Shown: one piece after another, positions 33,027-36,945 of the stretch
Layout of the letters: each line of letters opens with the position of its first letter
Numbering within the stretch: the stretch's first letter is position 1
Assembly: GCF_000219725.1 (NCBI RefSeq)
Contig: NC_015732.1
Coordinates: forward strand, 2,542,001 to 2,606,000
DNA length: 64,000 nucleotides
DNA from: Gracilinema caldarium DSM 7334
GTDB lineage: Bacteria > Spirochaetota > Spirochaetia > Treponematales > Breznakiellaceae
Direction: 5' to 3'
Translations under genes and position numbers: made by a program
Notes under the pieces: generated by a model
Databases searched by the model: none
What the model saw: the letters and a program-made list of their open reading frames with translations, nothing else
Told to the model about the DNA's origin: nothing

Positions 33027-33446
33027 CTATGGTCGTATCACCATTCCCAATTCTGCGACGTAGTGTACCAGGGATTTCCAGCCTTCTTCGGCTATCGAGC
33101 GCAGAACTGCCATATCCATTTGTTGATATTCATGTATGGCAACATTTCTGAAGCCGACCATAGCAACCATTGCCTTCGCAGTTTCTTTGGAAAGTATTTG
33201 AGATTTTTCCAGAATTCTAAAAGCATCAGCACTGGTCTGAGGTATTCCAAGGTGAGATACAGAACAAATATGAATTGCCAAATCTATAGCAGCCTGACAC
33301 GCCCGTTCTATGTTCAAAGTAAGGGCATCGATATGGGTGAACTTGGTTAATGTCGGGTCCTGTTGAAATTCTTCCAAAGCCCGGCGTATGGAGCGCTCAA
33401 TGATGGCAGCTTTATTCAGCATTACATCATCAACGTTGATAAGCAT
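33027..33446 (-). CDS. hepT: HepT-like ribonuclease toxin (DUF86)
   Basis: The 139-residue helical protein carries the HEPN active motif R-x4-H-x-Y in FRNVAIHEYQQ. The remainder follows HepT: ERSIRRALEEFQQ, ERACQAAIDLAIHICS, GIPQTSADAFRILEK. HepT toxins cleave tRNA or mRNA and are silenced when the partner MntA adds AMP to the Tyr of this motif. It overlaps the mntA-like gene by 17 bases and follows it, the standard order. Confidence 0.88.
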   Translation of the reverse strand: MLINVDDVMLNKAAIIERSIRRALEEFQQDPTLTKFTHIDALTLNIERACQAAIDLAIHICSVSHLGIPQTSADAFRILEKSQILSKETAKAMVAMVGFRNVAIHEYQQMDMAVLRSIAEEGWKSLVHYVAELGMVIRP

Positions 33447-33825
33447 GAACTAATTCCTTTCGTTCTTCGGTAAACCAGAGATACATGCTGATGAGGCTTG
33501 TTTCCATAAGATCTACATAAAAGGGATCTTTGGTAAAGAGACGATAACCTGCACCAAGGACTTGCCGTGCGTAGACCAGGTTAGCGGAGGACAGGAGCCC
33601 CACATCAACCTGCCGACCTACCTCATAGGAAATATGCCCCCCAATCGCTGCTAGGTCCAAACTATGCAAAGCTATACCCTGAAATGGTAATACAGCCACA
33701 TCGATATCGCTGTCTGGCCTCATTCGCCCCTGGATACTGCTACCCAGCAGATAGGCTGCAGCGATCCGGACATCCTGCTCAAGCAGGAAGCGTATCTGGT
33801 CTATGACCTTTTGTGAAAGCTTCAT
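33430..33825 (-). CDS. mntA: MntA-like minimal nucleotidyltransferase antitoxin
   Basis: The 131-residue protein has the nucleotidyltransferase motif G-S-x10-D-x-D in YLLGSSIQGRMRPDSDIDVAV, with the third acidic residue in EVGRQVDVGLL. In known pairs it AMPylates HepT to neutralise it. ATG 33825 is preferred over the TTG 12 codons upstream because the family begins here, although no ribosome site is obvious. The overlap with hepT supports coupled expression. Confidence 0.87.
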   Translation of the reverse strand: MKLSQKVIDQIRFLLEQDVRIAAAYLLGSSIQGRMRPDSDIDVAVLPFQGIALHSLDLAAIGGHISYEVGRQVDVGLLSSANLVYARQVLGAGYRLFTKDPFYVDLMETSLISMYLWFTEERKELVHAYQR

Positions 33826-33954
33826 AGGATTCAGTATAAAAGGTGGACTGAACAATCGCAAGCGGCTCGACCTGGGAGCCTGCCGGCTTGAGGCAGTGTA
33901 TCAGCTCCACCTAAAAGAGCCAGAGCCGCTTGAACCGGTGCTGGAACCTGCGCA

Positions 33955-34022: not shown

Positions 34023-34394
34023 CTACTGCTTTAGATAGGCCCAGAATGAAGGAGATGTTTCATTACCCAAAATAAGGTATTTATTGTTGAGGATAGAGAT
34101 TTTATAAGCACCATTGTTTTCTTGCATATCAGTTACAGTCATGGTCCCGTTGGAATAGGTGTAGGTACCTGAGTCTGTGCTAGTAGGATCGTTGTAAGTC
34201 CCTGTGTTGGATTCATATCTTTTATAAATGACAGTGCCATTAGCATTAAAAATGTATTCAGTTTTGTAATAGGTTTGCATATAGGTATTGGACTCCCATT
34301 TTTTCCTCATCGACTCATGAACCCAGGTTCCCACCAGGCCCGACACGGACCCTTGGGCAGTGAAAAACTCCCCAATATACAGCTGGTTTCCCAC
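34023..34394 (-). CDS. Small lipocalin-like protein, N-terminus probably damaged
   Basis: The 123-residue frame reads GLVGTWVHESMRKKWESNTY, YKTEYIFNANGTVIYKRYE, GTYTYSNGTMTVTDMQENNG and YKISILNNKYLIL, the beta-strand pattern of lipocalin-like domains in secreted proteins. Such proteins normally have a signal peptide, but the only start here is a GTG inside the strand region. An ATG-AAA-AAA start occurs upstream near 34477 in another frame. The gene may have lost its signal peptide by frameshift. No family assignment is certain. Confidence 0.5.
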   Translation of the reverse strand: MGNQLYIGEFFTAQGSVSGLVGTWVHESMRKKWESNTYMQTYYKTEYIFNANGTVIYKRYESNTGTYNDPTSTDSGTYTYSNGTMTVTDMQENNGAYKISILNNKYLILGNETSPSFWAYLKQ

Positions 34395-34493: not shown

Positions 34494-34522
34494 TTGACAA
34501 AAACAACTACAAAAGTTTACTT
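34494..34522 (+). promoter_or_regulatory. Promoter upstream of the fluoride riboswitch
   Basis: TTGACA at 34494-34499 is followed 16-18 bases later by a weak -10 (TTTACT or TACTTT around 34516-34523). Transcription would start near 34530, just before the aptamer. Confidence 0.55.
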
Positions 34523-34540
34523 TGTGTTTACAAGGTATGA

Positions 34541-34614
34541 GGTGATGGAGTTCACCAACGAGCGCATTCGCTCTGAACCGCCTTCCTGGCCGATAACTCC
34601 TATGAAGGAGTTAT
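34541..34614 (+). ncRNA. Fluoride riboswitch (crcB motif) with SD-sequestering hairpin
   Basis: The aptamer matches the crcB class. GGTGATGGAGTTCACC (34541-34556) is followed by a variable hairpin GAGCG/CGCTC (34560-34573), AACCGCC (34576-34582) with its GCC/GGC stem, and GATAACTCCTAT (34592-34603). The two key pairings are present: GGTGA with TCACC, and the long-range GGAGTT (34547-34552) with AACTCC (34595-34600). The expression platform is explicit: ATAACTCCT (34593-34601) can instead pair perfectly with AGGAGTTAT (34606-34614), which contains the Shine-Dalgarno site 7 bases before the MFS start. Fluoride binding should free that site, an ON switch at translation. Confidence 0.85.
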
Positions 34615-34617
34615 GCT

Positions 34618-35826
34618 ATGGCCAAAGCAAAGAATCCTGATGACAAAAAGCTTTCTTCCTCCCTTTCGGCGGCTTATCTATTTATTGTCCTTTTTGGCGT
34701 GGTGAGCCTTTTCTCTGACATGACCCATGAAGGAGCGCGCAGCATCACGGGGCCTTTTCTGTCGAGCCTGGGGCTTTCTGCAGCTGCGGTTGCGACAATT
34801 GCCGGCTTCGGTGAGTTTGTCGGATATGCATTGCGTTTTGCTTCTGGCTATTTGAGCGATAAGACAAAGCGCTATTGGCTCGTAACCGGCGTCGGATACA
34901 CAGTCAATTTGCTTTCGGTGCCGCTCCTTGCGCTTGCAGGCAGCTGGCAGATTGCCGCACTGCTCATGATTCTGGAACGAGCCGGGCGGGCTATACGGAA
35001 CCCTGCACGAGATGGAATGTTGTCCCATGCAACGTCGGAAACCGGACATGGTAAAGGCTTCGGCTTACATGAAGCGCTGGATCAAATCGGTGCCACAACA
35101 GGTCCTCTTATTATTACCGTCGTACTGGCTGCTGGAGGTACGATGCAGCATGCCTTTTCCTTTTTGCTCATCCCTGCACTCACCGCTTTGATCATCCTCA
35201 TGGCAACCCGAATTCGTTATCCTCATCCTCAAGCCCTCGAAACTGCCCAAAAAGAAAATCTCAGAGGGGCTCACTTTCCGAAGGCATTCTGGTTCTATCT
35301 TATTGCGGCATCTTTGGTAGCAGTAGGATTTGTCGATTATACCCTCCTTGCCTATCATTTTCAGAAAGGCGACCTGATGAAACCATCGACCATAGCAATT
35401 TACTATGGGATTGCAATGGGCACTGATGCTGTGTTTGCGCTTATTTTTGGATCCCTCTATGACAAGATTGGGATCAGAGCCTTGGTCATATCGACAGCAC
35501 TGTCATTATTTTTTCCCGTTTTTGGATTTCAACACAATGGAACGCTTGCGCTTATCGGTGTTATGCTCTGGGGAGTAGGAATGGGTGCACAGGAATCAAT
35601 CATGCGTGCGGCGATTGCGCATTTTGCATCAAAAGACAAGAGGGCCACCGCGTACGGATTTTTCAATATGGTATATGGGTTTTCGTGGTTCGCAGGCAGT
35701 GCGCTTTTCGGTGTACTGTATGATATCTCGATCCCATGGGCTATAGTGTTTTCGGTAGTCATGCAGGCAATTTCGATACCTTTCTTTTTCATAAGCGCTA
35801 GAGCGGGAGCAAGCAAAGCGGTTTGA
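34618..35826 (+). CDS. MFS transporter under fluoride riboswitch control
   Basis: The 402-residue protein has about 12 membrane helices and MFS landmarks: FGVVSLFSDMTHEGARSITG in helix 1, GYLSDKTKRYW as the loop 2-3 A-motif variant, RAGRAIRNPARDGMLSHAT in loop 4-5 and a GSLYDKIGIR repeat in the second half. It belongs to the drug/metabolite exporter-like MFS branch. The ATG lies directly after the riboswitch hairpin. Fluoride control suggests that it exports fluoride or helps cells under fluoride stress; that function is inferred from the RNA, not from the protein sequence. Confidence 0.88.
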   Translation: MAKAKNPDDKKLSSSLSAAYLFIVLFGVVSLFSDMTHEGARSITGPFLSSLGLSAAAVATIAGFGEFVGYALRFASGYLSDKTKRYWLVTGVGYTVNLLSVPLLALAGSWQIAALLMILERAGRAIRNPARDGMLSHATSETGHGKGFGLHEALDQIGATTGPLIITVVLAAGGTMQHAFSFLLIPALTALIILMATRIRYPHPQALETAQKENLRGAHFPKAFWFYLIAASLVAVGFVDYTLLAYHFQKGDLMKPSTIAIYYGIAMGTDAVFALIFGSLYDKIGIRALVISTALSLFFPVFGFQHNGTLALIGVMLWGVGMGAQESIMRAAIAHFASKDKRATAYGFFNMVYGFSWFAGSALFGVLYDISIPWAIVFSVVMQAISIPFFFISARAGASKAV

Positions 35827-35907: not shown

Positions 35908-36945
35908 TTAAAGTACAGCAAAAGCCAGGAAGCAAAGGGAGAGAACCAGTATTGTTACAGCTGTATTCCAGTACAGTAACCGAAGGGCCCTTGCTATATC
36001 CGATGTATCAGGAGCTTTCCCTTCAGGATGTATCCAGGGTTTATCCACTAAACCTTCAGGATACCAGGTGGGGCCTCCAAGCTTTAGATTGAGCACCCCC
36101 GCATAGGCTGCCTCGGGATGGCCCGAATTGGGGCTTTCATGGGCCTTACGATAGGTGATAAAAATGTTCCATGCCTCCAGAATAGAACCTCCCACAAAGG
36201 AAGCACAAAGACACGCCGCCAGAGCAGAGAAACGGGCTGGAATAAAATTAGCTACATCGTCTGATCGGGCGGCCCACCAGCCAAAATAGCGGTACCGATC
36301 ATTTTTATGACCAAAGATTGAGTCCATTGTGTTAATTGCCCGGTACAGCAGGGCCGCCCAGGGGCCCAAAAGAACGGCATACAAGAGCGGACTTGCGATA
36401 CTGTCCACAGAGCTCTCAGCCACACTTTCTATACAAGCCCGGGCGACTCCCTCTGAATCGAGCTTTTCAGGATCCCGCCCAACCAGCAGGGACACCGCTT
36501 TTCGGCCATGATGGGGTTGTGTCCCTCCCTTGTTTTCGAGGACATCCCGTTCTAAAGCAAGGGTTACTTCCCGGGCGTGTTGAACCAGGTCCTTGATGGC
36601 AAAGGAAGCCCAAATAATAAGACTGTCCCAGATGAAAACTGGCATAAACCCACATTTTAATAATAATCTATGTCCTGCCAGGGGAATACAAGCAGCCGGG
36701 ATGGTAACGATAAACCAGGAAAGCATACCAGCTAGCCTCAGCCTGAGGATAGGAAGAGCTTTTTCCCTCGTCCCATTGGATACCCTAGAAGACTCACAGC
36801 CTAAAAGCCGCCGGGACCAGGTTTCTGCTTTGCATGCTAAATTCCCTAAAAGCCGCACCGGATGGAGAGCAAAAACCGGATCCCCAATAAGGAAGTCCAG
36901 TCCTAAGGCGGCAAAAATGGCAAACAGCGATTCATACTTGTTCAT
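35908..36945 (-). CDS. cbiB: Adenosylcobinamide-phosphate synthase (CbiB/CobD)
   Basis: The 345-residue membrane protein shows the family pattern: LGLDFLIGDPVFALHPVRLLG at the start, then ARACIESVAESSVDSIASPLLYAVLLGP, INTMDSIFGHKNDRYRYFGWWAARSDDVANFIPARFSAL, and GHPEAAYAGVLNLKLGGPTWY. It joins aminopropanol phosphate to cobyric acid in the B12 pathway. Its ATG overlaps the stop of the cobQ remnant (ATGA), a relic of translational coupling. Confidence 0.93.
   Translation of the reverse strand: MNKYESLFAIFAALGLDFLIGDPVFALHPVRLLGNLACKAETWSRRLLGCESSRVSNGTREKALPILRLRLAGMLSWFIVTIPAACIPLAGHRLLLKCGFMPVFIWDSLIIWASFAIKDLVQHAREVTLALERDVLENKGGTQPHHGRKAVSLLVGRDPEKLDSEGVARACIESVAESSVDSIASPLLYAVLLGPWAALLYRAINTMDSIFGHKNDRYRYFGWWAARSDDVANFIPARFSALAACLCASFVGGSILEAWNIFITYRKAHESPNSGHPEAAYAGVLNLKLGGPTWYPEGLVDKPWIHPEGKAPDTSDIARALRLLYWNTAVTILVLSLCFLAFAVL

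Follow-up and report, generated by a model that had tools for sequence, protein, structure and literature searches.

Known bacterial fluoride export rests on two types of protein, Fluc and CLC-F, and in crcB-motif aptamers fluoride is held by Mg2+. For the crcB motif class, an ON logic based on competition for the 3' pseudoknot strand has been proposed, and an association with mutS was recorded when the motif was discovered (PMC2864571). Established associates of fluoride riboswitches include enolase, pyrophosphatase, USP, CrcB and Na+/H+ antiporters (PMC11139923; PMC5533749). The window analysed here, a 64-kb stretch of DNA, carries such an aptamer directly ahead of a gene for an MFS transporter.

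The original prediction had recognised a crcB-motif riboswitch in front of this gene and proposed a search with the Rfam crcB covariance model. Scanning the whole window with cmscan returned a match to RF01734 (fluoride riboswitch) on the plus strand (45.8 bits, E 1.7e-9), clearing the gathering score of 34 bits. It was one of two Rfam matches in the 64 kb, the other being a tRNA, and was recovered at the same position by a genome-wide scan. The match is full length with no broken pairs, P1, P2, pseudoknot and tail all fit, and the predicted core elements (GGUG/CACC, AACCGCC and GGAGUU/AACUCC) were all present in the sequence and the cmscan alignment. The interval first given, 34541-34620, captured the right element, but it spans P1 to the MFS start codon, which forms its end, while the aptamer proper starts about 9 nt earlier and ends at 34609. 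The aptamer lies in the 5' UTR, its last nucleotide 9 nt ahead of the start codon. The features of the locus are as follows:

34023-34394, minus strand: lipocalin-like gene, upstream neighbour of the MFS gene (Pfam and ORF reading)
34494-34523, plus strand: possible promoter, TTGACA (34494-34499), 18 nt and a weak -10 TACTTT (34518-34523), read by eye with low confidence and under the threshold of the promoter scan
34532-34609, plus strand: fluoride riboswitch aptamer (RF01734)
34541-34556, plus strand: P1 hairpin, GGUG (34541-34544) with CACC (34553-34556), loop AUGGAGUU (cmscan alignment)
34547-34552, plus strand: pseudoknot strand 1, GGAGUU, inside the P1 loop (sequence)
34560-34573, plus strand: extra hairpin GAGCG-CAUU-CGCUC between P1 and AACCGCC (cmscan insert and folding)
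34576-34582, plus strand: AACCGCC core segment (sequence)
34580-34590, plus strand: P2 hairpin, GCC (34580-34582) with GGC (34588-34590), its 5' strand part of AACCGCC (cmscan alignment)
34588-34623, plus strand: predicted expression platform, a 14-bp interrupted hairpin of 34588-34601 with 34606-34614 and 34619-34623, masking the Shine-Dalgarno (SD) sequence and start codon (folding)
34595-34600, plus strand: pseudoknot strand 2, AACUCC, within CGAUAACUCCUA, alternative partner of the ribosome-binding site (sequence and folding)
34605-34610, plus strand: SD sequence AAGGAG, 7 nt ahead of the ATG at 34618 (sequence)
34618-35826, plus strand: MFS transporter gene, ATG start, 402 aa, fluoride-associated clade (Pfam MFS_1 9.3e-40, structural model and tree)
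35908-36945, minus strand: CobD/CbiB gene, downstream neighbour of the MFS gene (Pfam and ORF reading)

In these sequence features, the riboswitch is typical of the RF01734 class, with which it shares sequence, P1, P2, pseudoknot and tail above the cut-off. The extra hairpin between P1 and AACCGCC sets it apart from the usual form, and similar inserts are present in other leaders of the family.

The AACUCC strand has two exact and mutually exclusive partners, GGAGUU in the P1 loop and GGAGUU at 34607-34612, which overlaps the SD sequence. The platform hairpin alone was predicted at -17.1 kcal/mol, and the leader fold had a z of -2.9. In the free leader RNA, folding gave 98% pairing of the SD sequence and about 60% of the start codon. 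With the aptamer pairs forced, the start codon was 2-8% paired, and pairing of the SD sequence with downstream sequence ranged from 7% in the shortest folding window to 68-78% in longer ones, pseudoknot energies being approximate. This layout reads as a translational ON switch, a direction of switching that we infer from the leader. Without fluoride, AACUCC would pair with GGAGUU at the ribosome-binding site, helped by a GGCC/GGCC pairing, and the SD sequence and start codon would be masked. With fluoride, which the aptamer is expected to bind, AACUCC would pair with the P1-loop GGAGUU and lock the pseudoknot; P2 would take up GGC, the platform hairpin could not form, and the freed SD sequence would allow the MFS protein to be made.

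Transcription termination is common in the fluoride riboswitch class and occurs in the Anaerolineae leaders described below, but as the mode of control of the window copy it is very improbable. The platform hairpin (34588-34623) extends over the start codon, and neither the sequence nor a scan of the leader revealed a U-run after it; without a U-tract, it is not a terminator. As both flanking genes lie on the opposite strand, the MFS gene stands alone (monocistronic), which agrees with the earlier statement that it is the only downstream gene. The aptamer, its position and the competing pairings support the predicted control of this gene by a fluoride riboswitch, which is quite probably a translational ON switch of a one-gene mRNA for an MFS transporter of the fluoride stress response.

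In Pfam, the MFS protein matched MFS_1 and, weakly, ATG22, and nothing else; no homology to CrcB/Fluc (PF02537) or CLC-F (PF00654) was detected there. Its score against the Tet(A/B/C/D) efflux NCBIfam (45.5 bits) fell far under the cut-off of 475, and a PDB sequence search gave no match. An AlphaFold2 model built from a 44-sequence input showed an all-helical MFS fold (pLDDT 88.7, pTM 0.87). The matches listed by Foldseek and VIA were MFS-type transporters, the best of them (Z 38.3, rmsd 3.3, 378 aligned) being tied with many others; OxlT, MCT1, MCT8, VMAT, SV2A and others were nearly equal. Since so many solved MFS transporters match the model about equally well, assignment of a substrate from structure was dropped. 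Across the clade, the charged residues D34, E38, E66, E120, R121, R127, E152, D240 and E326 are invariant, and the clade-specific conserved residues include D240, Q325, S327, W357, S361, S379 and Q383.

The genomic surroundings of the protein family were inspected in 80 MFS relatives (47-58% identity, one genome per species) picked by protein similarity alone. Their record titles include Omnitrophota, Planctomycetota, Anaerolineales, Nitrospiraceae, Cyanobacteria, Spirochaetes, Thermodesulfobacterium, Methanoperedens, Methanobacteriaceae and others, archaea thus being included. Within about 3 kb of the MFS gene, 18 of the 80 loci held a total of 23 cut-off RF01734 matches (512 kb scanned), and about three quarters of the relatives had no cut-off riboswitch within that distance. 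Depending on the background rate, taken as 0.05 per Mb (44 cut-off matches in 296 Spirochaetota genomes, assumed to be ~3 Mb each) or 0.43 per Mb (8 matches in five Anaerolineae genomes), 0.03-0.22 matches would be expected in 512 kb, so that the excess is about 100-fold or more; related loci and tandem copies are non-independent, although no reasonable correction removes an excess of this size. Eleven loci have the riboswitch upstream, on the strand of the MFS gene and at the head of a run of genes including it; co-transcription is presumed from order and strand, and representative neighbours in these runs were confirmed by Pfam:

L033 and L069 (the latter Methanoperedens): riboswitch, then a prenyltransferase-repeat gene and MFS
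L044: riboswitch, then HEAT/zinc ribbon, prenyltransferase-like, CrcB, DUF190 and MFS
L058, L082 and L088: riboswitch, then Na+/H+ exchanger, USP and MFS
L062: riboswitch, then a phosphoglycerate-mutase-like His_Phos protein, followed by MFS and enolase
L056, L068, L077 and L080: the remaining riboswitch-headed runs with MFS

Over all 80 loci, the neighbours comprised USP (9), enolase (7), Na+/H+ exchanger (7), DUF190 (6), MutS-like (6) and CrcB (4) genes. These riboswitches and fluoride-associated genes around the MFS relatives support the proposed fluoride-stress transporter family, more strongly than the window locus does by itself, and on such genomic context the clade is likely to be one. 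Genes for prenyltransferase-repeat proteins, HEAT/zinc-ribbon proteins and DUF6062 also recur in several phyla beside fluoride riboswitches and MFS genes (L033, L043, L044, L056, L069, L077; L062, L068, L082), and these are uncharacterised candidates for fluoride-response genes.

Among Anaerolineae, a riboswitch and terminator directly precede the MFS gene in at least eight cases (L014, L027, L038, L057, L060, L167, L169 and L172). Three of them (L167, L169 and L172) have more ordinary fluoride aptamers with a like terminator logic, recognised by descriptor and by eye, as was a fluoride aptamer further upstream of the MFS gene in L165. The other five have aptamer-like leaders that fall below RF01734 detection, at the following positions:

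L014, 2832-2946: aptamer-like leader
L027, 2827-2940: aptamer-like leader
L038, 2690-2805: aptamer-like leader
L057, 2860-2975: aptamer-like leader
L060, 2876-2985: aptamer-like leader

Those of L014, L027, L038 and L057 read GATGAGGCTCGTC...CYGATAGCCTCTACC, then GGTAGAGGCTTTTTT, and L060 has a slightly different form. The GGTAGAGGCTTTTTT segment is a pseudoknot strand whose alternative is a perfect terminator. All five have an altered, longer junction and a perfect terminator, and four show a CAGGC...GCCTG-type pairing; they may represent a structurally divergent form of the fluoride riboswitch. These direct leaders make the riboswitch-to-MFS arrangement a recurrent one, the Anaerolineae copies having terminators and the window copy a predicted switch at the ribosome site.

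A tree built from 110 MFS sequences, with the window protein entered twice, placed the riboswitch-linked members and the window protein on one side. The sister MFS clade (n = 19), which includes a paralog from the source genome itself, had no nearby riboswitch (0 of 19); compared with 18 of 80 this gives a Fisher p of 0.02, which is supportive only, as the flanks are of unequal size and the members related. The paralog (G000:C1:2403518-2404711, L161; 44-46% identity) is located beside ABC-2-type transporter genes. Within the Spirochaetota sample, in which minus-strand loci were partly read in the wrong orientation, the source genome was the only one with a riboswitch directly before an MFS gene of this family. 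A single such arrangement in the phylum could mean that the aptamer is degenerate or transplanted and its link with the MFS gene accidental, but this is extremely improbable: the core elements and pairs are all intact in the RF01734 match, the platform competing for the SD sequence fits the MFS gene exactly, and the linkage recurs in other phyla.

The source genome, a single contig of 3,239,340 bp, carries another fluoride riboswitch outside the window, at a distance of 60 kb (G000:C1:2636695-2636774; L099:2196-2275). It heads a pair of MutS-domain-V (MutS-like) genes, and a similar layout was found in the same genus (L093). The genome also encodes one CrcB, the gene for which is without a riboswitch, and a single CLC, which carries GSGIP/GREGP and belongs to the ordinary chloride type. 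Inside the window, a HepT-like RNase and an MNT-type nucleotidyltransferase are encoded as a pair at 33027-33861 on the minus strand, likely a toxin-antitoxin module.

Under fluoride stress, the MFS protein probably draws on the proton gradient to remove a harmful substance from the cell. This may be fluoride or HF, or a metabolite that would accumulate once enolase and further Mg-phosphoryl enzymes are inhibited by fluoride. That the protein itself exports fluoride or HF, as a third type beside Fluc/CrcB and CLC-F, is somewhat unlikely. Direct control by fluoride with no further gene downstream would fit such a role, as would the clade-wide invariant charged residues and the lack of both CrcB and CLC in eight genomes with an MFS gene in riboswitch clusters (G640, G643, G644, G645, G647, G651, G343 and G374). 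However, the source genome retains crcB, some MFS gene clusters already hold CrcB, many genomes without known exporters are incomplete MAGs, and neither the sequence nor the generic MFS fold points to a substrate. Replacement of CrcB/CLC-F by the MFS protein was also considered and rejected: among 22 genomes in which MFS stands in a riboswitch context, 12 lacked CrcB (8 of these 12 also CLC), against 18 of 25 control Spirochaetota genomes with a riboswitch and outside the MFS hit list. Only 2 of these controls had a CLC-F signature, and only 8 had either CrcB or that signature. As control genomes lack CrcB just as often, missing exporters are no evidence for replacement; they are a general feature of riboswitch-bearing genomes or draft assemblies and not specific to MFS. 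Some riboswitches in the control genomes precede Na+/H+ exchanger-like genes.

We give just short of even weight to the reading that the MFS protein carries not fluoride itself but a metabolite or ion that fluoride disturbs (a glycolytic acid, a phosphate ester, an H+-coupled anion or a divalent cation). Its relatives neighbour damage-limitation genes (enolase, phosphoglycerate mutase, Na+/H+ antiporters and USP), and about half of the MFS genomes tested also have CrcB. The anion carriers OxlT and MCT1/MCT8 are among the tied best structural matches, but so are many unrelated MFS proteins, and rankings this close are uninformative on substrate. On present evidence, it is unlikely that the distinct MFS clade, which extends across bacteria and archaea, forms a third family of riboswitch-controlled fluoride exporters. 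The broader assignment to the fluoride stress response makes it probable that microbes rely on this family in coping with fluoride and that its part has been overlooked.

A literature search returned no paper tying the fluoride riboswitch or RF01734 to an MFS transporter or to this clade, the main gene list (Baker et al. 2012) being outside its reach; as far as the search goes, the cross-phylum link may be new. A further transporter family tied to a fluoride sensor across phyla could help to explain how some riboswitch-bearing genomes manage without detectable CrcB or CLC-F. It would also provide a testable function for an orphan MFS family and supply candidate gene clusters for engineering fluoride tolerance.

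Compared with the RF01734 class, the window leader has in common the proposed ON logic through a competing 3' pseudoknot strand (PMC2864571), and differs in that its platform would block access to the ribosome site and forms no terminator, and in that it controls an MFS gene alone. The riboswitch-linked Na+/H+ antiporters, enolase, PPase and USP of the E. cloacae FRM operon (PMC5533749) and a review (PMC11139923) belong to the fluoride response as secondary members, and these gene types adjoin MFS in other genomes; the searched text of the two papers does not mention MFS. BenE-I of Pseudomonas putida is, like the window protein, neither CrcB nor CLC; it is a transporter that contributes to fluoride tolerance, but one for benzoate and under a protein regulator, with no riboswitch link described in its abstract (PMC13104614). 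The CrcB/Fluc and CLC-F exporters and the window MFS protein are all membrane transport proteins whose gene comes first, or stands alone, after a fluoride riboswitch; they differ in that the MFS fold is unrelated to either, and in that CrcB/Fluc and CLC-F are exporters whereas the window protein is a predicted transporter.
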